Source: Saccharothrix algeriensis
Lineage (GTDB): Bacteria; Actinomycetota; Actinomycetes; Mycobacteriales; Pseudonocardiaceae
Length of the DNA: 64,000 nt
Direction: 5' to 3'
Assembly: GCF_016907655.1 (NCBI RefSeq)
Contig: NZ_JAFBCL010000001.1
Coordinates: 744,001-808,000, forward strand
The notes under the pieces were generated by a model that searched no databases, was not told the DNA's origin, and worked only from the letters and a program-made list of their open reading frames with translations. This document shows positions 5,271 through 59,815 of the stretch, piece after piece. A program made the translations under genes and the position numbers. The first letter of the stretch is position 1, and each line of letters starts with the position of its first letter.

Positions 5271-6412
5271 CAGGTGAACCCGCGTTCCTGCGCCTCGCGG
5301 CGCTCCTGCTCCGACGGCGCGTTGCGCGCCTGGTCGTAGACCTCCTGGGTGCCGAACTTGACCGCGCCGTCCACGGCCGCATCCACACCGGCGCTGAAGG
5401 CGGCGCCGCCGACCCGGGTCTGACCGCCGAGCATGCCGCTGAGCACGGTCTGGGCGATGTTGCCGGCCAGGGCGCCCTCGCCGGTGACGTTCTGCATGAA
5501 CCGGTTTCCCGTGGTGGAGGCCAGCGAGACGTCGTCGGCCCTGGTCATGATGTTGACCAGCGGGTTCGAGCCCAGATGGCGGCCGGCGAACTGCTGGGCC
5601 ATGTTGCCTCCGCGCAGGCCGTTCATCCGCTGGATGACCTGGCGCAGCGGGCCGCGCAGCCGGGTGAGCAGGGCCTCCAACCGCTTGACGATCTTGAACA
5701 ACTCCATCTGGAGCTTGGACACGCGCATGGTGATGCGCATACCCGTGCTGCCGACCTGGACGGTGGTGGTGGCCCCGGCGGCGGCCACCGAGCCGCCCGC
5801 GGTGATCCAGGAGGCGGCCAGCGCGGCCAGCCACTGCACGATCAGGCCGATGATCAGCTCGGTCAGGATCTGGACCACGAACTCGACGAACATGTCGAAC
5901 AGCTCAGCGATCATGTCCAGGGTCTGCTTGAGGCCCCGCACGTCCTCGGCCAGCGCCGACACGCCCTCACCGAACTCGGTGACCTGGGCGCGGAAGGCGT
6001 CGCCCGCGGCGCCCTCCCACACCCCGGCGGTGGCCTGGGCGCGCTTCTTCTCGGCCTCGGCGACCTCGTCCAGCCAGCCGGCGACCTGTTCCCAGCCGGC
6101 GCCGGTGGCGCGCATCTGCTCCGGGTCGCCGACCGCCCACTCGGCGATCTCGATCAGCGGGCTGAGCACGATGGAGACCAGGAAGCCCAGGCCGTTGTCC
6201 AGCAGCGCCTGACCGGGGCCGGCCATCGTCTGGAGCAGCTCCACGCGCCCGGAGATCGTGGCCGCGGCCATCTCCGGCGGGCTGGTGGCGTCGGCCAGGT
6301 CCTGCAACGCCCCGATGCCCGAGCTGCCGCGCCCGGCGGCCTGCTCGAACCAGTTCTTCTGCTCACCCCCGTTGAGGTCGGCGAACGTGCCCGGACCCGA
6401 CGCGCCGGTCAT
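5267..6412 (-). CDS. WXG100-like type VII secretion cargo with hydrophobic middle
   Basis: 381 residues. A WXG-type turn is clear at VWEGAAGDAF (W132-E-G134), inside a long helical hairpin (about residues 95-175). It is followed by hydrophobic helices (about 165-225, with FMVEFVVQIL-like and IIGLIVQWLAALAASW segments) and a basic, helical C-terminal half ending in a charged tail (QERREAQERGF). This combination is common in actinobacterial proteins exported by ESX/type VII systems or inserted in the membrane as partners of toxins. It overlaps both neighbours by 4 bp (ATGA with the EspC-like gene, GTGA with the next gene), so the operon is tightly coupled. No toxin domain is recognisable at the C-terminus. 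Confidence 0.7.
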   Translation of the reverse strand: MTGASGPGTFADLNGGEQKNWFEQAAGRGSSGIGALQDLADATSPPEMAAATISGRVELLQTMAGPGQALLDNGLGFLVSIVLSPLIEIAEWAVGDPEQMRATGAGWEQVAGWLDEVAEAEKKRAQATAGVWEGAAGDAFRAQVTEFGEGVSALAEDVRGLKQTLDMIAELFDMFVEFVVQILTELIIGLIVQWLAALAASWITAGGSVAAAGATTTVQVGSTGMRITMRVSKLQMELFKIVKRLEALLTRLRGPLRQVIQRMNGLRGGNMAQQFAGRHLGSNPLVNIMTRADDVSLASTTGNRFMQNVTGEGALAGNIAQTVLSGMLGGQTRVGGAAFSAGVDAAVDGAVKFGTQEVYDQARNAPSEQERREAQERGFTW

Positions 6413-6735
6413 CGGCCACCGCCCAGGCCGCCGCCGATCTGCGTCAGCGCTTGCGAGATGCCGTCGTCAACACCGCGGTAGACCTCGAAGCTGTCGCGCA
6501 ACTGCTCGCCGGTCTGCTCCAGGAAGTCCTTGGCGTCGTTCGCCAGCTGCCGGCACTCGTCCAGGCTGGAGAAGTAGCCGCTGCTCAGCCCCACCGCGTC
6601 ACCGATCAGCCCGAAGCACTGGTCGTCCACCCTGGCCTGTTCCAGCAGTTCGGCGAGCTGCCCGAACTTCCCGGCCAGGCTCTCGCTACCGGCCGCGAAG
6701 GCGGTCAACGCCTCCGGGACGATGCTGAACGCCAT
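6409..6735 (-). CDS. EspC-like type VII secretion target protein
   Basis: A 108-residue, almost entirely helical protein starting MAFSIVPEALTAFAAGSESL. The size, the early helix and the central SLDECRQLANDAKDFLEQTGEQLRDSF-type helix (shown in part) fit the EspC/ESX-1 secretion-associated family, small substrates or chaperone-like partners of type VII secretion. The YxxxD/E export signal is not obvious at the very end, which is Gly-rich. The ATG has a strong GGGGAGGGG-type ribosome-binding site. It is the second gene of the operon and is followed directly by the WXG protein, its probable dimer partner. Confidence 0.75.
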   Translation of the reverse strand: MAFSIVPEALTAFAAGSESLAGKFGQLAELLEQARVDDQCFGLIGDAVGLSSGYFSSLDECRQLANDAKDFLEQTGEQLRDSFEVYRGVDDGISQALTQIGGGLGGGR

Positions 6736-6747
6736 CCGCCCCTCCCC

Positions 6748-7287
6748 TCAACGCAAGTACGTGCTCGGCGGTTCGTCGTCTTCGACGCCGGCTGGAGCCG
6801 GACGGTTCCGCGGCGGTCGGCTGGATGGCGGAGCAGGCGGTGGCTGCCCGAACCGCGGCCCTGTGGCAGGTGCCGCAGGCTGCCCCGACTGCGGCGGCGT
6901 GGCCTGGGGCTGCCCGGCCGGCGGGGGCGCAGACGGCATGATCGGCTCGACGCCGGACGCCGCCATGCCCTGCTTGAACTGCTCCAACCGGTCACCCAGG
7001 ATCGGGGCCAGCGCCGCGTCGAGCTGCCGGGCGGCATCCTGGGTGGCCGCCCGGATCGCGTCCAGGATCTCCTGCTGCAACGCCACGTGCGAGCGCCCCA
7101 TCGCAGCCGGCGCAAGCTGCAACCCCAGCACGGCCCCGGACGGCGCCGCGGTCACGGTCACCGCACCGTCCCGGCTGCGCCCGACCCCGCGCAGCTCCTT
7201 CATCGCCTCCTGGAGCTGACTGGCCTTCGCCGCCTGCTCCTGGAAAGTCCGCAGCATGTCCTGCACACGCCTCTGCGGATCGACCAC
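6748..7287 (-). CDS. YbaB/EbfC family protein heading a type VII-associated operon
   Basis: 179 residues. The first about 95 match the YbaB/EbfC nucleoid-associated family: a coiled helix (MLRTFQEQAAKASQLQEAM), SRDGAVTVTAAPSGAVLGLQL, then a helix with EILDAIRAATQDA. The rest is Pro/Gln/Ala-rich and probably disordered. The frame is open to 7416, but the GTG at 7287 has a GGAGG site 6 bases upstream and gives the family's usual N-terminus. YbaB-like genes often sit next to WXG/ESX cargo genes in actinomycetes. Whether they bind DNA or act in secretion is unclear. It is the first gene of the minus-strand operon. Confidence 0.75.
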   Translation of the reverse strand: MVDPQRRVQDMLRTFQEQAAKASQLQEAMKELRGVGRSRDGAVTVTAAPSGAVLGLQLAPAAMGRSHVALQQEILDAIRAATQDAARQLDAALAPILGDRLEQFKQGMAASGVEPIMPSAPPPAGQPQATPPQSGQPAAPATGPRFGQPPPAPPSSRPPRNRPAPAGVEDDEPPSTYLR

Positions 7288-49591: not shown

Positions 49592-50092
49592 GTGAAGACG
49601 CCCGACGAGTGGATGCGGGAGTTCGAGGCGAAGATCGCCGACGCGCAGCGCAAGGCTGCCGCGGTGCAGGAGGGGTTGGCGAGCGCCCAGGGGTCCGCGA
49701 CCTCGAAGGACGGGTCGATCTCCGTCACGGTCGCGCCCAACGGCGCGCTGACCGACCTGAGGTTCACCGCCGACGTCATGCGCAGGTCGCACACGCAGCT
49801 CGCCGCGGAGGTCGTGGCCGTCGCGAGGGAGGCCCAGCGGGCGGCCGCGGTGCAGGTCGCGGAGACGTTCGGGGCGATCGAGGGCACCGACTCCGAGACG
49901 TACCGGGTCATCACCGAGTACCTGCCCGAGCCGGTCGAGGACGAGCCGGAACGGCCGCGGTACGCGTTCGAGCAGGAGCTCGACGGGCCGGCGGCGCGCA
50001 GCGACCCGCCGCCGCGCCGGTCCGCGCCGCCGCGTCCGGTGGACGACGACGACCGCGATTTCAGCAGCGAGTCGATTTTCCGGAACCAGTAG
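49592..50092 (+). CDS. YbaB/EbfC family protein heading the toxin operon
   Basis: 166 residues: a coiled helix (WMREFEAKIADAQRKAAAVQ), SKDGSISVTVAPNGALTDLRF and LAAEVVAVAREAQRAAAVQV, the YbaB/EbfC fold, then an acidic/Pro-rich tail ending SSESIFRNQ. It is a paralogue in plan of the YbaB-like gene at 6748-7287, which also heads a WXG/EspC-type operon. GTG 49592 is the best start. It is followed 18 bp later by the WXG-type protein and then the giant toxin, so its role is probably linked to the secreted cargo rather than to general nucleoid structure. Confidence 0.78.
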   Translation: MKTPDEWMREFEAKIADAQRKAAAVQEGLASAQGSATSKDGSISVTVAPNGALTDLRFTADVMRRSHTQLAAEVVAVAREAQRAAAVQVAETFGAIEGTDSETYRVITEYLPEPVEDEPERPRYAFEQELDGPAARSDPPPRRSAPPRPVDDDDRDFSSESIFRNQ

Positions 50093-50110: not shown

Positions 50111-50944
50111 GTGGCAGAAGAAGAGAGCACCACCACCTGGTCCACCGGCGCAGGTGTGTTCGACAGCGTCAACGGGCTGGTCACCTCGCTGACCGCGGAG
50201 TCCGAGGGCGAGGGCGTCGACGTCATCGACGTCGCGCTGGGCGGCGCGGGCGTCGTGGTGGACCTGGTCGGCGTGGCGGTGAACCCGCTGGGCGCGCTGG
50301 CGTCGGCGGGCGTGGGGTGGCTGCTGGAGCACGTGAGCTTCATCCGGGAGCCGCTGGACGCGTTGCTGGGCAACCCGGACGAGATCAACGCCAACGTCGA
50401 CCAGCTCAAGCAGGCGGCGCTGGAGATGAAGGTGATCGCCGAGGAGCACCGCCGGGACCTGGACTCGGTGTCCGGCTGGGAGGGCCGGTCCGGCGACGCG
50501 TTCCGCTCCGAGATGGACACCATGGCGGCCGAGTACGAGGCGCTCGGGTCGACCATGGACGGCACGGCGGCGATCTACGCGCTGTCCGGCGCGCTGGTGT
50601 GCGAGCTGCGGGCGCTGATCTTCGGGTGGATCTCCGACCTGATCGGGGAGCTGATCGCGGGCGCGCTGATCGCGGCGGCGTCGGCGGTGGTGACCGCGGG
50701 CGGGTCGATCGCGGCGTACGCCGGGTACGCGGGCACGCGGGCGGCGATGCTGGCGACCAGGATGGCGACGCGGCTGTCGAAGCTGGGCGCGGCGATGGCG
50801 CGCATGGGCGGCCGGATCGCGAAGCTGGCCGACAAGATGCAGGGCCTGGTCAAGGGGCTGGAGCGGTTCGCCGAGTACGGCGGCTACGCCAAGACGGCCT
50901 ACGACGCGGTCAAGCCGTACGAAATGCCGCCGGCCAACGCCTGA
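50111..50944 (+). CDS. WXG-type type VII secretion cargo/partner with hydrophobic segment
   Basis: 277 residues. The WXG turn is VSGWEGRSGDAF (W123-E-G125), nearly the same as VWEGAAGDAF in the first locus. Hydrophobic stretches lie at about 40-75 and 165-215 (FGWISDLIGELIAGALIAAA), and a basic helical end follows. This resembles the N-terminal LXG/WXG-like partners that guide large toxins to the type VII machine. It is separated from the giant toxin gene by a TGATG overlap, so the two are made together and probably form a heterodimer through the toxin N-terminus. GTG 50111. Confidence 0.72.
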   Translation: MAEEESTTTWSTGAGVFDSVNGLVTSLTAESEGEGVDVIDVALGGAGVVVDLVGVAVNPLGALASAGVGWLLEHVSFIREPLDALLGNPDEINANVDQLKQAALEMKVIAEEHRRDLDSVSGWEGRSGDAFRSEMDTMAAEYEALGSTMDGTAAIYALSGALVCELRALIFGWISDLIGELIAGALIAAASAVVTAGGSIAAYAGYAGTRAAMLATRMATRLSKLGAAMARMGGRIAKLADKMQGLVKGLERFAEYGGYAKTAYDAVKPYEMPPANA

Positions 50945-53900
50945 TGGCCGGCAACCGGACCGGTCGCGGTCCGTCCTCGCACCGCGGCGGTGACGACGGC
51001 AGGTCGTCGTCACCGCCGGCGGCGTCCACCCCCGCCGGCACCGGGGGTTCGATCGGCGGTCGCGGCACGCGGATGGACACCGACGCCGTCGAGAACCTCG
51101 GCGGGCGGATCACCGGCCGCGGCGAGCAGCTGCGGACCGGTGTCGCGGCGAAGCTGAACATCAGCGCCGGTTCGAGCAGCGCGGGCGTGTTCGGGCAGGT
51201 CGCGATGATCCAGGCCGACCGCGCCATCGCGACCGCGCGCAACGGCGCGGACAAGGCGGCGGAGGCGGCGGACAACGCGGGCGCGAAGACCAAGGCCACC
51301 GCGCAGACGGCCCGCGACACCGACCAGTCGGCGGCGAACTCCCTGCGCCGCATCGAGAGCCGCCCCCCGGTCACGACGTCCACCGGTTCGACGGGCACGG
51401 GCACGTCGTCGTCCCCGTCCTCGTCCTCGGCCGGCCGCACGTCCGCCGCGCCGACGCTGCCCGGCGGTCCCGCCGGCACGTCGAGCCCGGCCCGGCCCGG
51501 CGGCGCCTCGACGCCCGCGAGCCCGCCGCCGTCGTTGGGCAACCGCCTCGGCGGGCCGCCGGCGACCGGTGGGCCCTCGACCACGCCCGGCCGGTCCGGT
51601 GGCCCGGTCCCGCCGGTCACCCGGCCCGGTGGCCCCGCGCCCGGTGGCCTTCCGGGTGGTTCTCCGGGTGGCTCTCCGGGTGGTCTTCCGGGCAGCCCGG
51701 CTCCCGGGACCACGCGACCCGGTGGCGCGCCGGCCGCGCTCGACCGGCACGCCGGCGGGCCGCAGGCGGCGACGCGTCCCGATGGCGTGCCGCGCGCCGG
51801 GGGCGTGCCGGGCGGGCTCCCCGCCAGCGGGCCGCAGGCTGGTGGGGCCCAGGCTGGTGGGGCGCGTCCGGGCGGTGTGCCCGGTGGGAGCGCGCCCGGT
51901 GGTGCTCCGCGGACCGGTGGGGTTCCGGGCGGTGGGGTTCCGGGCGGGACGCCTGGCGCGCCGCGGGCGAGCAATGCGCCCGGTGGGATGCCGAGTGGTG
52001 TGCCCGCTGCGACGCCGAGTGGTGGGGCGCGGCCCGGCGGTGCGCCAGGCGCTGTCCCGGGTGGTGCGCCTGGCACTGCCCCCGGTGGTGCGCCGCGGCC
52101 CGCCGGCACGCCTGGTGGGATGCCGCCGCAGGGCGGGATCCCACCGCGAGGTGGGCACACTCCCCCAGGGGGCGGGATGCCGCCGCAGGGCGGGCCCGCG
52201 CGACCGGGTGGACCGCACGACCGCCCGTCTCCCGGCACCGCGCCAGGGGGGCGGCCGATGCCGGCCGGGAACGCGCCGCACCCCGGGCCCCCGCCTTCCC
52301 CGCAGCAGCCGAACCCCGGCCGGCCACCGCACCCCGGACAACCGCACACCGGACAGCCGCACACCGGACAAGCACACCCCGGGCAGCCGCACACCGGGCG
52401 GTCGCACACAGCGCCTTCGCACGCCGGCCAACCGCACGCCGGCCAACCGCACGCCGGGCAACCGCGCCCGGAACAGCCGTTCTCCAGGCCGCACACCGGA
52501 CAGCCGCACCCTGCGCAACCGCACACCGCACACCCTCACAACGCTCAACCTCGCGCCGCGCAACCTCATCCCGGGCAACCTCACCCCGGGCAGACGCCGC
52601 GCCCCGGCCAGGTGCCGCACTCCGGGCCACCACCTCGGTCCACCCCACCGCCGAGTGGAATGCACGCGCCCCGGGCGGGCACCGGTCCGTTCGCCCCGCC
52701 GCACGGCGGGCAGCAGACGCGCCCCGGCGGTCCGCCCGCACCCGGCCGCGCGCCGGACTTCGGGCAGCGGCCCCACCAGCCCGCGCCGTGGGCCCCGCCG
52801 GGCGCGGCTCCCCCGCCCGAGCGGGCGAACGCCGGGGGCGCGCCTCCGCAGGGCCCGCCGGACAGCGGAACCGCCCCGCGCCAGGACGGGCCGCCACCGG
52901 TCGCGCTGCACCACGTCGACCCGTCGACGTACGGCGTGTCCACTGTGGTCACGAGGGACGTCGAAGGGTGGGCGCGGGACGAGAACGCGCTCTACCGCGG
53001 GGACACCCGGTCGCCGGAGGAGGTCCGCGCGGCGGGCGGGTTCCACCCGCACCGGCCGGACGCGCCCGACCTGCGGCAGCACGTCCACGGTGACACGAAC
53101 GCGTTCGTCAGCACGTCCACCGACCAGGAGGTCGGCGTGGAGCGGGCCGGGCGCGGCGCCGTCTACGTGATCCACGCGCCGGGCGGGGTCCTGACCGACC
53201 CGACCATGCGCGCCAACGGGGACACCCGCGGGTACGGCGAGTCGGAGGTGCTGTTCCCGGGCGGGGTGGACTGGCGGTACGTCGCCGGGTGGCACGAGGT
53301 CCGGTACGACCCGGGCGAGCGCAGGTTGGTGCCCGGACCGTTCGTGCCCAACCCGAACTACATCGGTGACCGGGTGGCGGGCACGCCCGGCTCCGGCGCC
53401 GTTTCCCGCTCCGACGCGTCGCCGAGCACGCCGCAGGCCGCCGACCCGACGCCGAGCCGGGCACCGGACCCCGCACCGCCGCCGCCCCGGACCGCACCCG
53501 ATGTCGCCACGCACAGCCCCGCGCAGGCGTGGCCGCCGGCCAGGCAGGAGCCGGCGGCGCAGGGCCGGCCGGGAGACGCGCGGCAGCCCGCCCCCGGACA
53601 GCCCGCCCCCGGACAGTCGGGCCACGGACAGGCGCGGACCGACCACCCCCACGGCGGGCAGCCCCGGCAAGACGGCGCGCCCCACCAGGGCCGGCAGCAC
53701 CCCGGTCAGCAGCCGGGCCAGCAGCACCCGGGCCAGCAGCACTTGGGCCAGCAGCACTTGGGCCAGCAGCACCCAGGACAGCAGCACCCAGGGCAGCGCC
53801 AGCCGGGACAACAGCACCCGGGACAGCACCAGCCGGGACAGCACCAGCCGGGCAACCGGCACCCGGGCCAGCAGTCGCCGGTCGGCCAGGCGCAGCCGCA

Positions 53901-55767
53901 CGCGCCGTTCCGCGGCGACCAGTTCCCGCCGCCCACCGACCGCGCACAGCAGCCCCACCCCTACGACGCCCACAGCCGGCCACCGGCCGGCCCGTTCGAT
54001 CCGCGGGTGCAGCAGCCCAGGCCGCACGACGCCCCGCCGAACCCGTACGCGGATCGGACCCAGCCCCAACACACCCAGCCCCAACACACCCAGCCCCAGC
54101 ACTTCCCGCCCGGTCACCCGCCCACCCAGCAGCCCTCGTTCGGCCCGATGGGCAGCGAGGCGTGGGAGGCGCAGCGGCGCGAAGCGGAGGCCGAGCAGGC
54201 GCGGCAGGCCCAGCGGACCGCCGAGCAGGAGCGACCGCGCAGGTTCGAGGCGCCGCCGCGGGAGGAGCGACCCCGGCGGCCGTTGGGCGAGCGGCTCCGG
54301 GAGCTGCCCGACGAGCGGCTGGACCGCCACCGGCAGCACATGCAGGCCACGCCCGCCGGCATGTCGATCTTCCCCAGCGGCGAGAGCGGCGAGCGGTACT
54401 CGGCCAACCAGGTGCCGAAGATCCCCGGCAGGTTCGTGGTCGACGTGCACGGCTCCGCCGGGGCGGTCCGCGTCGACCGCTCGAACCTGAGCGCGGACGA
54501 CCTCGCCGACATCCTGATGGCCAACCCGGACTGGGACGGCAAGACGCCGATCACGCTCGCGGGCTGCCGGACGGGCCAACTGCCGGACGGGTTCGCGGCC
54601 CGGCTCGCGGAGCGCACGGGCGTGCCGGTCACCGCGCCGACCACCGACGCGTGGGTCGACTACGACGGCAACATGTTCGCGTCCGACACGCACGGCACGC
54701 CCAACGGCGACCGCCCGGGTTGGCCGCCGAACGGCGAGTGGCACACCTTCGGCCCCGACGGCTCCCACCACGTCGACGAAAGCCCTTACCCGCCGGGCCA
54801 CCCCCCGACGTGGGGCGACGACCTGCCGGCCGAGGCCCCGTCGCACGCGACCCAGCGCGGCGAGGTGGTGTCGGAGCTGAAGGTCCTGGAACCGAACCAG
54901 GTCTCCGGCCGCTCGATCCTCAAGGACGTGCGGGAGGAGTACGTGCGGGACTACCGCGACCGGATCGAGCAGCAGGGCAAGCAGGTCGCGGTGATCCGGT
55001 TCGACCCGCAGCCGACCGACCCGGACTCGTGGAAGGCCAAGATGGACGCCTCGCGCGCCTCGGCCGACCAGAAGGAGAAGAACATCGGGGCGCTCGGCTA
55101 CCAGGTGCACCACCACCTGCTGCCCCCGAACGCGAGCCGCGAAGACCTGCAAGCGCTGATGGACCGGTTCAACAACGACAGCGACGTGAGCGGCATCATC
55201 CTCCAGATGCCCGCACCGCAGCGTTTCCAGGACTTCGTCGAGCAGATCAGCCCCGAGAAGGACATCGACGCGCTGCTGCACGACGACGCCTCGCCGCACG
55301 ACGCGTGCGCGACCGCGGACGGCATCGTGCGCGTGGTGGACCCCTTCCTGGAGGGGCGGCCCACGGTGGCGGTGGTCGGCTCGGACGGGTTCGTCGGCGG
55401 CGGTGTGGTGCGGCTGCTGGAGCAGCGCAGCGCCGAGATGGTGCTGCTGGACCAGGGCAGCGACCTGATGCGCGTCCGGGACGCGGACATCGTCGTCTCG
55501 GTCACGGGCGCGCCGCGCATCCTGGGGCCGGAGCACCTGCACGAGGGTCACCTGCTCGTGGTGGACTCCGGGTTCGTGCCCCAGCCGGGCACGAAGACGA
55601 TCCTCAGCGACGTGCAGCAGGAGGCGTCCGCGCTCCCCCGGCTGGTCACGCCCGTGCCGGGCGGCATCGGGCCGGTGGAGATGGCGGTGCTGCTGGACCG
55701 CCTGGTGCGCCGGGACGTCGACCCGGACCTGCCGCCGTGGCGGGTGGTGCGCCCGGAGGGGACGTGA
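50944..55767 (+). CDS. 1607-residue polymorphic toxin-like protein: EspC-like helix, ADP-ribosyltransferase, clan-CD-like domain, FolD-like C-terminus
   Basis: Modules: residues about 44-140, helical EspC/WXG-like segment; 141-650, Gly/Pro/His/Gln low-complexity linker; about 650-808, ADP-ribosyltransferase of the R-S-E class (R685 in LYRGD, S723-T-S725 in AFVSTSTD, E766-S-E768 in YGESEVLFPGG); 809-1135, Gln/His/Pro repeats; about 1140-1290, a domain with His1169 in VVDVHGSAG and Cys1208 in ITLAGCRTG, like clan CD cysteine peptidases; about 1310-1607, FolD-like dehydrogenase/cyclohydrolase with K1377, Q1421 in ILQMPAP, D1442 in KDIDAL and TPVPGGIGP. The FolD tyrosine position is Ser1373. Probably exported by type VII secretion with the WXG protein upstream; toxicity is inferred. 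ATG 50944 overlaps that gene's stop; the open frame upstream is not coding. Confidence 0.8.
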   Translation: MAGNRTGRGPSSHRGGDDGRSSSPPAASTPAGTGGSIGGRGTRMDTDAVENLGGRITGRGEQLRTGVAAKLNISAGSSSAGVFGQVAMIQADRAIATARNGADKAAEAADNAGAKTKATAQTARDTDQSAANSLRRIESRPPVTTSTGSTGTGTSSSPSSSSAGRTSAAPTLPGGPAGTSSPARPGGASTPASPPPSLGNRLGGPPATGGPSTTPGRSGGPVPPVTRPGGPAPGGLPGGSPGGSPGGLPGSPAPGTTRPGGAPAALDRHAGGPQAATRPDGVPRAGGVPGGLPASGPQAGGAQAGGARPGGVPGGSAPGGAPRTGGVPGGGVPGGTPGAPRASNAPGGMPSGVPAATPSGGARPGGAPGAVPGGAPGTAPGGAPRPAGTPGGMPPQGGIPPRGGHTPPGGGMPPQGGPARPGGPHDRPSPGTAPGGRPMPAGNAPHPGPPPSPQQPNPGRPPHPGQPHTGQPHTGQAHPGQPHTGRSHTAPSHAGQPHAGQPHAGQPRPEQPFSRPHTGQPHPAQPHTAHPHNAQPRAAQPHPGQPHPGQTPRPGQVPHSGPPPRSTPPPSGMHAPRAGTGPFAPPHGGQQTRPGGPPAPGRAPDFGQRPHQPAPWAPPGAAPPPERANAGGAPPQGPPDSGTAPRQDGPPPVALHHVDPSTYGVSTVVTRDVEGWARDENALYRGDTRSPEEVRAAGGFHPHRPDAPDLRQHVHGDTNAFVSTSTDQEVGVERAGRGAVYVIHAPGGVLTDPTMRANGDTRGYGESEVLFPGGVDWRYVAGWHEVRYDPGERRLVPGPFVPNPNYIGDRVAGTPGSGAVSRSDASPSTPQAADPTPSRAPDPAPPPPRTAPDVATHSPAQAWPPARQEPAAQGRPGDARQPAPGQPAPGQSGHGQARTDHPHGGQPRQDGAPHQGRQHPGQQPGQQHPGQQHLGQQHLGQQHPGQQHPGQRQPGQQHPGQHQPGQHQPGNRHPGQQSPVGQAQPHAPFRGDQFPPPTDRAQQPHPYDAHSRPPAGPFDPRVQQPRPHDAPPNPYADRTQPQHTQPQHTQPQHFPPGHPPTQQPSFGPMGSEAWEAQRREAEAEQARQAQRTAEQERPRRFEAPPREERPRRPLGERLRELPDERLDRHRQHMQATPAGMSIFPSGESGERYSANQVPKIPGRFVVDVHGSAGAVRVDRSNLSADDLADILMANPDWDGKTPITLAGCRTGQLPDGFAARLAERTGVPVTAPTTDAWVDYDGNMFASDTHGTPNGDRPGWPPNGEWHTFGPDGSHHVDESPYPPGHPPTWGDDLPAEAPSHATQRGEVVSELKVLEPNQVSGRSILKDVREEYVRDYRDRIEQQGKQVAVIRFDPQPTDPDSWKAKMDASRASADQKEKNIGALGYQVHHHLLPPNASREDLQALMDRFNNDSDVSGIILQMPAPQRFQDFVEQISPEKDIDALLHDDASPHDACATADGIVRVVDPFLEGRPTVAVVGSDGFVGGGVVRLLEQRSAEMVLLDQGSDLMRVRDADIVVSVTGAPRILGPEHLHEGHLLVVDSGFVPQPGTKTILSDVQQEASALPRLVTPVPGGIGPVEMAVLLDRLVRRDVDPDLPPWRVVRPEGT
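51640..52620 (+). repeat. Gly-Pro-Gly and His-Pro-Gly-Gln coding repeats
   Basis: Degenerate repeats inside the toxin gene. About 51640-52260 encodes GGxPGG-type units (15-24 bp), and about 52310-52600 encodes QPHTGQPHAG-type pentapeptides (15-bp units such as the one starting CACACCGGACAGCCG). They form a disordered linker before the ADP-ribosyltransferase domain. Confidence 0.75.
53695..54105 (+). repeat. 15-bp tandem repeats encoding HPGQQ units
   Basis: 53695-53875 has about a dozen 15-bp units (such as CAGCACTTGGGCCAG) coding for HPGQQ/HLGQQ/QPGQH. 54061-54105 has three copies of CAGCCCCAACACACC or close variants (QPQHT). Unit length keeps the frame on expansion or contraction. They separate the ADP-ribosyltransferase from the clan-CD-like domain. 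Confidence 0.8.
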
Positions 55768-55772
55768 CCGGG

Positions 55773-56252
55773 TCAGAACTCCCAGCCGAGCGCCCGCACC
55801 GTCTCGGGCACCGGGTCGAGCCCGAGGTCGCCGTACAGCTCCTCGAACTCCGCCGCCCGGTAGTTGCGGTGCTTCTTGATGTCGTCGTGGTAGTGCCCGT
55901 TGAAGTAGAGCAGGTCGGTGACGACGAACTCCTCGGGAGCGCCGTCGATGTACCGGTCGGAGAACTCACCGAAGTGCTGCACCCACAGGACTTGGTCCCA
56001 CGGCACCTCCACCGAGTCGCCGACCGCCGCGCGCAGCGCCTCGGCCGGCCGGTCGAAGTAGCCGAGCGACCAGTGCCGGGAGTTGCTGCGGATCTCGGTG
56101 AACACCGCGACCGGCGGCAGCGGCGGCTCGCGCAGGACGAGCCGGGCCAGGCAGTGGGCGTCCCGGCTGTCGCGCAGGTGCTCGTAGCGCAGGATCATCC
56201 GGATCTGGGCGCCCTGCTCCTTGGTCACCACGTCGCGGTGGTCCTGCCCCAT
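55773..56252 (-). CDS. hypothetical protein convergent to the toxin (possible immunity protein)
   Basis: 159 residues, no signal peptide or membrane segment. Features: IRMILRYEHLRDSRDAHCLA, VAVFTEIRSNSRHWSLGYFD, QVLWVQHFGEFSDRYIDGAP, EEFVVTDLLYFNGHYHDDIKKHRN. I do not recognise the family. It begins 5 bp after the toxin stop on the opposite strand. Cytosolic location, small size and position make it the only immunity candidate beside the toxin, although immunity genes are usually co-directional. ATG 56252 has a GAGG site 7 bases upstream; the frame is open to 56339. Confidence 0.65.
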   Translation of the reverse strand: MGQDHRDVVTKEQGAQIRMILRYEHLRDSRDAHCLARLVLREPPLPPVAVFTEIRSNSRHWSLGYFDRPAEALRAAVGDSVEVPWDQVLWVQHFGEFSDRYIDGAPEEFVVTDLLYFNGHYHDDIKKHRNYRAAEFEELYGDLGLDPVPETVRALGWEF

Positions 56253-56419: not shown

Positions 56420-58783
56420 GTGAGCGAGCCGTTCGACATCGCGATCCGGGGCGCGGAGGCGTTCCGCTTCGAGCACGCGCCCGAGGCGACGGCGTACGTC
56501 GCGCCCGAGGCGACGGCGGACGAGAGCTGGCCGCCGTTCGACCTGGACGGTCGGTCGGTGCGCCGCATCCCGCTGTCGGAGTTCGAATCGGTCGTGTCGA
56601 TCCGGACGTGGCGGGTGCCCGCCGACGGCGCGCCGGAGCGGATCGACGTCGACCCGTTCGAGGGGCGCCTGGCGGCCGGGGAGCGACTGGTGCAGGTGCG
56701 CGAGGACGCGCCGCCGCCGGGCCTGTGGCCGCCGTACCCGGTGGTGCCCGCCGGCGACTCGTGGCCGCCCGACCACGAGTCGCTGTTGGACACCGTCGAG
56801 GAGGAGCTGCCGAAGCTCGCGCCCGAGGGGTGGCGGGTGCTCGCGGTGGAGTGCCGGGCCACGGCGCGGCGCGTCGAGTTGGAGGCCGGTGTCACGTTCG
56901 ACGACGGCGTGGCGCGCGCGTGGTCGCCGCCGCCGTTGGTCGGGCAGTGGCTGCACCGGCTGCGGATGCGGGACTACAGGTCCACGCTCGGCGTGTGGTA
57001 CACGGCGCGGTTGGAGTTCACCCGGGACGAGCCCGTGCGGCGGCACTTCGACATCGAGGGCAAGCCCGCGTGGGTGGCGCCCCTGTCGTTCCGCGAGGAG
57101 CTGGACCACTACGCCGACGAGCTGCGGCTGCTGCCGCGCCGCCCGGAAGCGATCCTCCCGTGGCTGTACGAGGCGGCGGCGAAGGCCCAGCAGCACGCGA
57201 TGGCGGGTGTGCTGGCGCGCCCGGACCGCGTGGACCCGGAGGACGAGCCGGCGGCGCTGATCGCGCCCGTGTTCGACGACGTCGACGCGAGCGGCCGTCC
57301 CGTGGCGTACCGGCCGATGGTCGGCGCGCGCGAGCGGCACGCGATCCTGGAGTACCTCGACGGCGCGCCGCTCGCGCTGTCGGGGCGCGGCCTGGCCGTG
57401 GACCGGTTGAGCGACGACGACGAGCCGGTCGTCCCCCTGGGCTACCGGACCGACGGCCGTTGGGTGTGGCACACGTCCGTGCCGTACTACCTGCGCAAGT
57501 ACCACGTGTCCCCGGCCCTGCCGCTGGTGGACCACATCCGGCGGCGGCGCTACCGGCTGCCCGAGCGGGTGCCGTCGATCGCGCTGGGACGCGCGGCGGA
57601 CCTCGCGATGGGCCGGTACGACAACGGGTCGCGGGCGGAGAGGGCGCTCGGGCGGGCGCTGGAGCCGCTGTTCGACGTGCTGCGGACGTGCCAGACGAGC
57701 CCCCGGCACTACCGGCTGGACGGTCACCAGGACCAGTCGTGGTGCCTGGTCCGCGAGGGCGACTGGTACCTCGTGTACTGGGCGGAGGGCAAGGAGAAGC
57801 AGCGGCTCGTGCGGTTCGCGGACGTGCGGGAGGCGGTCGCCTGCTTCGCCGGGCACGTGCAGCTGGAGCAGGGCGCGCTGCGGTACGACGTGGACGAGGA
57901 GCTGCCGTGGTGGCAGGTCCCGTTCACCGTGGTGTCCGAAGTGGACCCCCCGCTGTCGGAGTACGGCGAGGTGGCGCTGACGGTGGCCGTCGACCTGGAG
58001 GTCGACCGGTACGGCACGCCGGACGGCAACACCGGGTACGTCGCCGACACGCCGTTCGAGCAGCGCGGGCTGCCCGCCGAGCACGCGGGGCGCGAGTACC
58101 ACCGGTACCGGCTGCGCGGGCCGTGGAAGCTGGTGACGGCGGTGTCGCCGGCCGGCGGGCGGCTGTACGTGCTGCCCCGGCCGTTCGCGGACTACCTGGC
58201 GTCGGGCGACGTCGAGGAGGTCACGCCCGACCACCCCGGCCTGCCGCCGGTCACGGACGCCCTGCGCGCCGAGGCGCGGCGCAACCCGGGCGGCTGGGTG
58301 TGGTGCGCCGACCCGGACGTCGACCCGCGCTTCATCCAGGGCGTGCCGGACTTCGCCCTGCTGGGCGCCTACCGCGTCGGCCCGTCCGGCGAGCTGACCG
58401 GCGAGACGCACCTGAACCCCTCCTACCGCCCCTCCCCCCGCCGCCGCGGCTACCCGGAACCGCAGTCGGACTTCGAGGCGGTGCTCGGCTTCGTCGCGGC
58501 CGGCTGGCTGCCCCAGGACCGCGTGCTCCAGGCCGCGCTGGAGGGGCTGTTCCTGGTGGAGGCGGACCCGCAGGGCAGCTTCCGGCTGGGCCAGACCCCG
58601 GCCGGCGCGCGCTTCCTGGCGGTCTACACGTCACCGGGGTACGTGCCCGCGGGCGCGAACACCGTGCAGGTGCCGGGGCGCGCGCTGCTGCCCGTGCTGG
58701 CGGGCACGACGCTGGTGATCAACCCCGGTGGGCAGATGGGCATCGAGCTGCCGGGCGACGACCTCCTCGCGGCGGGGTCCTGA
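56420..58783 (+). CDS. TNT-related NADase-like protein with C-terminal SseB-like domain
   Basis: 787 residues. Residues about 100-245 (EELPKLAPEGWRVLAVECRA, WYTARLEFTRDEPVRRHFD) resemble YezG-type immunity-like domains, and a second similar block lies at 420-520. Residues about 515-615 are a TNT-type domain: VDRYGTPDGNTGYVADTPFE, QRGLPAEHAGREYHRYRLRG, LYVLPRPFADYLASGDVEEV. R530 and H561 match the catalytic Arg and His of the mycobacterial TNT; the Gln of the GGGTQY motif is Leu582 here by my alignment. The end (FLAVYTSPGYVP, LVINPGGQMGIELP) is SseB-like. No signal peptide. GTG 56420; type VII export or an intracellular role are both possible. Confidence 0.72.
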   Translation: MSEPFDIAIRGAEAFRFEHAPEATAYVAPEATADESWPPFDLDGRSVRRIPLSEFESVVSIRTWRVPADGAPERIDVDPFEGRLAAGERLVQVREDAPPPGLWPPYPVVPAGDSWPPDHESLLDTVEEELPKLAPEGWRVLAVECRATARRVELEAGVTFDDGVARAWSPPPLVGQWLHRLRMRDYRSTLGVWYTARLEFTRDEPVRRHFDIEGKPAWVAPLSFREELDHYADELRLLPRRPEAILPWLYEAAAKAQQHAMAGVLARPDRVDPEDEPAALIAPVFDDVDASGRPVAYRPMVGARERHAILEYLDGAPLALSGRGLAVDRLSDDDEPVVPLGYRTDGRWVWHTSVPYYLRKYHVSPALPLVDHIRRRRYRLPERVPSIALGRAADLAMGRYDNGSRAERALGRALEPLFDVLRTCQTSPRHYRLDGHQDQSWCLVREGDWYLVYWAEGKEKQRLVRFADVREAVACFAGHVQLEQGALRYDVDEELPWWQVPFTVVSEVDPPLSEYGEVALTVAVDLEVDRYGTPDGNTGYVADTPFEQRGLPAEHAGREYHRYRLRGPWKLVTAVSPAGGRLYVLPRPFADYLASGDVEEVTPDHPGLPPVTDALRAEARRNPGGWVWCADPDVDPRFIQGVPDFALLGAYRVGPSGELTGETHLNPSYRPSPRRRGYPEPQSDFEAVLGFVAAGWLPQDRVLQAALEGLFLVEADPQGSFRLGQTPAGARFLAVYTSPGYVPAGANTVQVPGRALLPVLAGTTLVINPGGQMGIELPGDDLLAAGS

Positions 58784-59002: not shown

Positions 59003-59815
59003 ATGTCATGGGTTTCACGCATTTCCTTGATCGCGGCTGCCGTTGTCGCCGGGTCGTTCATCGCCGGACCCGCGTCGGCGGTCGAGTCGCCGGGGGGAAC
59101 GCAGGTCGGGCCCGCCATCATCGGCGGCAGGGTCGTCACCACGCCCTATTCGTTCTTCGCCTCGCTGCAACGCGGTGGCCGGCACTTCTGCGGGGCGTCG
59201 CTCATCGCCCCGCAGTGGCTCGTCACCGCCAGGCACTGCGTCCAGGGTTCCACCGGTGGCGGTTTCTCCGCTCGGATCGGATCGCTCACCACGGGATCCG
59301 GTGGTGAACTCGTCACCGCGGCCGGCGCGATCCTCGGCGAGAACGACATCGCCGTGGTGAAGCTGTCCAGGCCCGCCGCCTCCCAGCCCATCCGGATCGC
59401 GGCGAGCAGCCCGGCCGTGGGCACCGTCAACAAGCTGATCGGCCATGGGCAGACGTGCGGCACCCCGGGTTGCGGCGGCCCTTCGCCGCAGCTCCGCGAA
59501 GTGGACACGAACACCGTCGCGGATTCCCGGTGCACGGCCTCCTTCAAGAGGGGCAAGGAGATCTGCTTCCAGGGCGCACCGGGCACCAGCGCCTGCTACG
59601 GCGACTCCGGCGGGCCGTCCGTCCTGGGCGGCGAGCTGACCGGCGCCACCAGCCGATCCGGCAACAACAGCCGCAACTGCCTCGACGGTCCCGGCATCTA
59701 CAACAGCGTTCCCGGCTACCGGGCCTGGATCGACCGGGTCACCGGTGGCGCGGTGAGCGCGTGGGAGGCGACGCCGCAGGCGTGGGCCACCGGGGCGTCG
59801 GCGTCGGCGAGCTGA
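59003..59815 (+). CDS. secreted trypsin-like serine protease (S1)
   Basis: 270 residues. Signal peptide to about residue 26, short propeptide, mature start near IIGGRVV (39-45). Triad: His78 in LVTARHCV, Asp115 in ENDIAVVKL, Ser202 in CYGDSGGP; cysteines CGAS/RHC and two further pairs fit chymotrypsin-fold disulfides. The activation sequence is VGPAIIGG, which lacks a basic residue before IIGG, so processing is not by trypsin itself. The residue at the S1 base (ACYGDSGGP preceded by GAPGTS) does not show Asp, so trypsin-like specificity is uncertain. The ATG follows GTAGGAGGTCG. Confidence 0.9.
   Translation: MSWVSRISLIAAAVVAGSFIAGPASAVESPGGTQVGPAIIGGRVVTTPYSFFASLQRGGRHFCGASLIAPQWLVTARHCVQGSTGGGFSARIGSLTTGSGGELVTAAGAILGENDIAVVKLSRPAASQPIRIAASSPAVGTVNKLIGHGQTCGTPGCGGPSPQLREVDTNTVADSRCTASFKRGKEICFQGAPGTSACYGDSGGPSVLGGELTGATSRSGNNSRNCLDGPGIYNSVPGYRAWIDRVTGGAVSAWEATPQAWATGASASAS

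Follow-up and report, generated by a model that had tools for sequence, protein, structure and literature searches.

The window analysed here is a 64,000-nucleotide stretch of Saccharothrix algeriensis DNA (contig NZ_JAFBCL010000001.1, positions 744,001 to 808,000), and positions are counted from its first letter. It contains a gene for a 1607-residue polymorphic-toxin-like protein that ends in a domain resembling the folate enzyme FolD. The gene belongs to a three-gene run and is followed by a small convergent gene. The features of the locus are as follows.

49592..50092, plus strand: YbaB/EbfC-like gene that opens the three-gene run (Pfam YbaB_DNA_bd, E 2e-11); it also precedes the WXG gene in loci L092, L093 and L095.
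50111..50944, plus strand: WXG100-like helical protein of 277 residues, a probable secretion partner (Pfam WXG100, E 0.0013; NCBIfam WXG100_ESAT6, E 6.5e-4; both below cut-off).
50944..55767, plus strand: polymorphic-toxin-like gene, 1607 residues; its ATG overlaps the stop codon of the upstream WXG-like gene.
50944..51363, plus strand: conserved N-terminal region (residues 1-140), a presumed export domain, with 68-84% identity in L092, L093 (residues 44-140 only) and L095.
51600..52900, plus strand: low-complexity linker with PGG and PHTGQ-type repeats.
52990..53361, plus strand: Scabin-like ADP-ribosyltransferase (ART) domain, residues 683-806 (Pfam E 1.2e-14, 54.7 bits against a cut-off of 27).
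53430..54310, plus strand: second low-complexity linker with HPGQQ-type repeats.
54319..54858, plus strand: His-Cys module, residues 1126-1305, with His1169 and Cys1208, a likely caspase/CHAT-type releasing peptidase.
54859..55764, plus strand: FolD-like domain, residues 1306-1607, the proposed warhead, with Ser1373, Lys1377, Gln1421, Asp1440, Asp1442 and Asp1503.
55773..56252, minus strand: small convergent partner gene, 159 residues, a candidate immunity gene; it ends 5 nt beyond the toxin stop, tail to tail.
56420..58783, plus strand: protein with TNT (NAD-glycohydrolase-type) and SseB domains, the conserved next gene (Pfam TNT, E 1e-10; SseB, E 1.5e-7; NCBIfam NF033532, above cut-off).

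The giant frame and its domain order agree with a previous sequence-only reading of this DNA, as do the repeat linkers, whose period is mainly 15 bp. The ADP-ribosyltransferase proposed there is a Scabin-like domain (PF22596) in the middle of the protein; its R-S-E motif was read in the sequence, and its matches among PDB sequences are 5zj4 and Scabin. The protein has two candidate effector domains, of which this is one. The EspC-like N-terminus suggested by the same reading was not recovered: residues 1-149 gave no Pfam match at E values up to 10, a search in which the HMMER filters discard most weak matches. A relative in genome G864 starts with a WXG100_2 domain above cut-off. The 277-residue WXG100-like protein is 86-94% identical across three relatives.

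The assignment of the C-terminus to the FolD family is firm. In the profile search that had been proposed for this region, both halves scored above the curated Pfam cut-offs: THF_DHG_CYH at residues 1321-1442 (52.5 bits against 32.8) and THF_DHG_CYH_C at residues 1455-1589 (57.7 bits against 27). The last 299 residues matched 26 distinct PDB sequences, all of the FolD/MTHFD type, and the two-domain fold of that family (PF00763 and PF02882) is present. Alignment confirmed the landmarks Lys1377, Gln1421, Asp1442 and the TPVPGGIGP loop (residues 1569-1577). The Lys/Gln/Asp catalytic set, in which Gln1421 corresponds to the catalytic Gln and Asp1442 to the pterin-binding Asp, is invariant in the alignment. 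The Tyr-x-x-x-Lys substrate motif of FolD is altered: Lys1377 is retained, and Ser1373 replaces the Tyr, as had been noticed from the sequence and as in 166 Ser-type rows (126 of the Ser-type rows in this alignment are protein rows). The Ser that reads NADP after strand 2 is likewise absent, with Asp1503 in its place in an alignment uncertain by one residue. This position is Asp or Glu in 165 of the 166 Ser-type rows and Ser in 63 of 79 FolD rows. Unlike FolD and MTHFD, the domain shares its chain with toxin modules and has a partner gene of its own.

The same gene order is found in three other genomes (G023, G010 and G277): a YbaB-like gene, a WXG-like gene, a giant gene with a FolD-like end, a small convergent gene and a TNT-type gene. 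In each of them, the N-terminus, the His-Cys module and the FolD-like domain lie within one open frame. The proteins of the window, G023 and G010 contain the Scabin-like domain; the G277 protein keeps the FolD-like end and has no ART match. Other carriers that end in the FolD-like domain are a 2603-residue WXG100_2 protein, a protein with what we read as a LysM-like stretch (without a Pfam match), and two carriers of 1.3 kaa. The G864 carrier (2510 residues, L128:4697-12229) has a WXG100_2 domain, two ART domains, two papain-type deamidase stretches and a FolD-like end, and an amidase gene then follows; up to five effector-type domains thus occur in one chain.

The His-Cys module was found in 149 of 297 family genomes, mostly within large frames; its His1169 and Cys1208 are shared by all four aligned rows, one of which is the window. 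Thirty loci carrying the module were fetched (L159 in part). The first four are the FolD-like fusions, and the other 26 have something else behind the module. Ten of the 26, chosen for variety, were scanned with Pfam. The following domains were APH, AbiEii, GT4-conflict and Scabin-like above cut-off, and RelA_SpoT (two loci), Toxin-deaminase (two) and ADPrib_exo_Tox (one) below it; one locus gave no Pfam match in the following region. Loci L149, L158, L162 and L166 show RelA/SpoT-like (below cut-off), AbiEii-type and GT4-conflict domains in this position. Some of the regions extend beyond the fetched stretch, so what is established for these domains is that they come after the module, not in every case that they end the protein. 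An exchangeable domain behind a shared module, as in polymorphic toxins, is present. Most caspase-like domains of polymorphic toxins are described as releasing peptidases in the portion of PMC3482391 consulted, and by this analogy we infer that the His-Cys module may be one as well.

The start of the partner gene was placed at an M-G-x-D-H-R-D-V-V stretch conserved in close relatives; W90, H93, G95, F97 and S98 of its product are invariant in the alignment. A family profile search located the partner beside the FolD-like domain at 25 of 28 distinct loci, a count that excludes L110, which duplicates L097, shorter fetches of places already represented, G977, and protein-only relatives. The orientation depends on the setting. 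In all five WXG-type fusions the partner is downstream on the opposite strand (in G864 the amidase gene intervenes), and at all 20 lone loci that have one it is directly upstream on the same strand. With the window partner as the sole query, ten of 386 genomes gave a match, each at a FolD-like locus; a single-sequence query would miss distant orphans, and the partners of G128, G182 and G964, which the profile recovered, did escape it. Co-occurrence of matches to this query with the FolD-like domain gave a Fisher p of 6e-17 on the assumption of independent genomes, which they are not (the two family searches drew 386 and 390 genomes). The small gene is linked to the domain, as an immunity gene of a polymorphic toxin would be. 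Since the gene follows the domain across genetic settings, its job appears to be tied to the domain. The plainest reading is that it encodes an immunity protein; a subunit or a chaperone are the rivals. A model of the partner (pLDDT 89.4) gave no confident fold match.

Based on these comparisons, we consider with moderate confidence that the protein is a modular toxin-type protein, whose FolD-like C-terminus is the predicted effector delivered into other cells and whose small neighbour is the likely immunity gene. Recruitment of a folate-enzyme fold as an effector, as the sequence-only reading had proposed, is supported because the domain takes the place of known toxin domains, ends different carriers and keeps its partner gene; the effect on folate or NAD in the target is the part of that proposal that stays conditional. 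That reading had overlooked the His-Cys module and the partner gene, as well as the lone copies on plasmids that are described below. The protein would be exported by a type VII system together with the WXG-like protein, and the His-Cys module would then cleave it and free the FolD-like domain. In the target cell, the domain may catalyse NAD+-linked oxidation of 5,10-methylene-tetrahydrofolate, or of a close one-carbon carrier, outside host control. The one-carbon donor for thymidylate would be drained and the NAD balance disturbed, and the producer would be protected by binding of the small protein to the released domain.

Several observations weigh against this interpretation. The Tyr of FolD stacks on folate (PMC3368264, consulted in part). 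Folate may not be the substrate here, because Ser replaces that Tyr. The peptidase family of the His-Cys module is not confirmed, since its DUF4347 match stays below cut-off (E 0.17 in the window, 0.026 in P0012), nor is the N-terminal export signal, in view of the lack of a Pfam match. The W..H.G.FS motif of the partner is more conserved than we would expect of an immunity protein. The three loci that lack the partner are on Nostocales plasmids (L113, L114 and L115; their FolD-like genes are of the Ser type, and a glycosyltransferase gene is next in L113 and L114). An amidase gene (Pfam Amidase) at 13 of the 28 loci, that of the G864 toxin included, is unexplained. A single origin of the fusions was not rejected (p-AU 0.415), so that repeated independent fusion is unsupported. 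Finally, the ancestral job may not be killing, because lone proteins outnumber fusions in length-limited searches: a search limited to about 165-527 residues returned 344 proteins, which among the best 120 were mostly lone and, where named, from Streptomyces, and one limited to large proteins returned six carriers and one ordinary multi-domain FolD.

The distribution of the domain is patchy. It was found in 14 of 390 family genomes, in 4 of 394 class genomes including that of the window, and in 7 of 199 genomes of the genus to which G420 belongs (probably Streptomyces). Fourteen plasmid records matched at E 1e-20, four from Pseudonocardia and ten cyanobacterial. On two Acaryochloris plasmids, the pair of FolD-like and partner genes adjoins a MobF relaxase gene; coupling genes of the TraG/VirD4 type occur no more than about 6 kb away in L096, L104, L117 and L118, and L104 also has a TrbL-like gene. 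Among the lone-size proteins listed, 118 tails (median 74 residues) were compared; 107 are net positive and 87 end in Arg, against an overall Arg share of 9.6% in the tails, relatedness being uncontrolled. Transfer of the lone copies through conjugation machinery is a lead that these features offer. In three genomes of genus g5, probably Pseudonocardia (L098, L131 and L132), the lone FolD-like copies look interrupted, with the partner and amidase genes still nearby. At the Streptomyces-type loci L102, L119 and L120, the lone gene and its partner adjoin apparent rpoB and rpoC genes, presumed from our own recognition of the sequence and not from a database match. In L102 and L120 the pair is at the end of a gene run resembling the conjugation clusters of other loci.

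These lone copies bear on an alternative that we regard as rather unlikely. On this view, the FolD-like domain would act with the small protein, and often also with the amidase, as a specialised enzyme system that handles a substrate other than folate and benefits the conjugative elements that carry it; as part of the giant proteins, the domain would be a delivered or surface enzyme and not a killer. Lone copies are the commoner ones among those found, and many have both the partner and the amidase, which also follows the toxin in L128. The change from Tyr to Ser would weaken folate stacking, and the strong conservation of the motif in the partner points to a role in catalysis or as a subunit. 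However, known toxin domains occupy the place of the FolD-like domain behind other copies of the His-Cys module, and neither the window nor the stretches fetched from G023, G010 and G277 gave an amidase match. The amidase could also act as a second partner by removing a product.

In our estimate, the small protein is unlikely to serve the FolD-like domain as a secretion chaperone or an obligate subunit instead of as an antidote. Its same-strand position directly upstream at the lone loci and the absence of copies away from FolD-like loci in the single-query search would suit such a role, whereas its gene in the WXG-type fusions lies on the opposite strand and outside the export operon, as expected if it is tied to the domain and not to the route. 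Quite improbable is the view that the ADP-ribosyltransferase is the only weapon and the FolD-like end a passenger or an NAD scaffold. Scabin-like ARTs are a known toxin family, but the G277 protein has the FolD-like end without an ART match, the FolD catalytic residues are invariant, and the partner gene also accompanies FolD-like copies without an ART.

An artefact, in which a housekeeping folD was fused through a missed stop or start or by misassembly, can be dismissed, as nothing was found in its favour and the 6.88 Mb genome encodes a separate FolD at C1:3957459 (family score 195.5 bits, compared with 63.2 for the toxin domain; 28% identity between the two over 221 aligned columns), the fusion is conserved in three other genomes, and the FolD-like domain falls in a separate clade with support of 100/100. 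A third family match in the genome, at C1:6691771, scores 21.2 bits, below cut-off.

Several other genes of the window were noted. Synteny of the TNT and SseB gene is kept in L092, L093 and L095, and a diverged copy lies near the G864 toxin in L128; NF033532 is a type VII secretion-associated entry. This neighbour is possibly a second NAD-directed toxin of the same island. NAD would be in the target pool of the FolD-like enzyme as it is for NAD-targeting toxins such as TNT (PF14021), but the FolD-like enzyme would reduce NAD+ and not hydrolyse it. Shortly after the TNT gene there is a trypsin-family serine protease gene (59003-59815, plus strand). A second pair of YbaB-like and WXG-like genes (5606-7260, minus strand), 26-32% identical to the studied pair, is perhaps another toxin export operon.

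The locus resembles the WXG-linked type VII polymorphic toxins with caspase-type releasing peptidases described in PMC3482391 (consulted in part) in its WXG-like operon gene, repeats, His-Cys module, exchangeable following domain and linked small gene, and differs from them in its FolD-like warhead. The words 'folate', 'tetrahydrofolate' and 'methylene' do not occur in the portion of that paper's text covered. The earlier statement that no toxin with this domain has been described agrees with the open-licence literature searched (folate-enzyme terms combined with toxin or conflict), which attributes one-carbon metabolism as a target to no polymorphic toxin. Polymorphic toxins are a known kind; within that literature, the FolD-like warhead, its partner and their sharing with plasmid-borne pairs are new.

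A broader proposal is possible but doubtful as a whole: a Ser-type, NAD-reading offshoot of FolD may serve as a mobile effector cassette of two unrelated delivery machines, joined to a WXG/His-Cys toxin chassis for type VII export, and as lone proteins with a basic, Arg-ended tail passing through conjugation (type IV) machinery, nearly always with the same private antidote, and may take over the one-carbon metabolism of recipients so that they die or stop growing. If this is true, bacteria would be attacking one another directly at central one-carbon metabolism, by means of a housekeeping fold converted into a weapon. A toxin-partner pair would be ready for assay. More than 100 Ser-type proteins, many annotated as FolD-type, would gain a testable function, and such annotations may be wrong.
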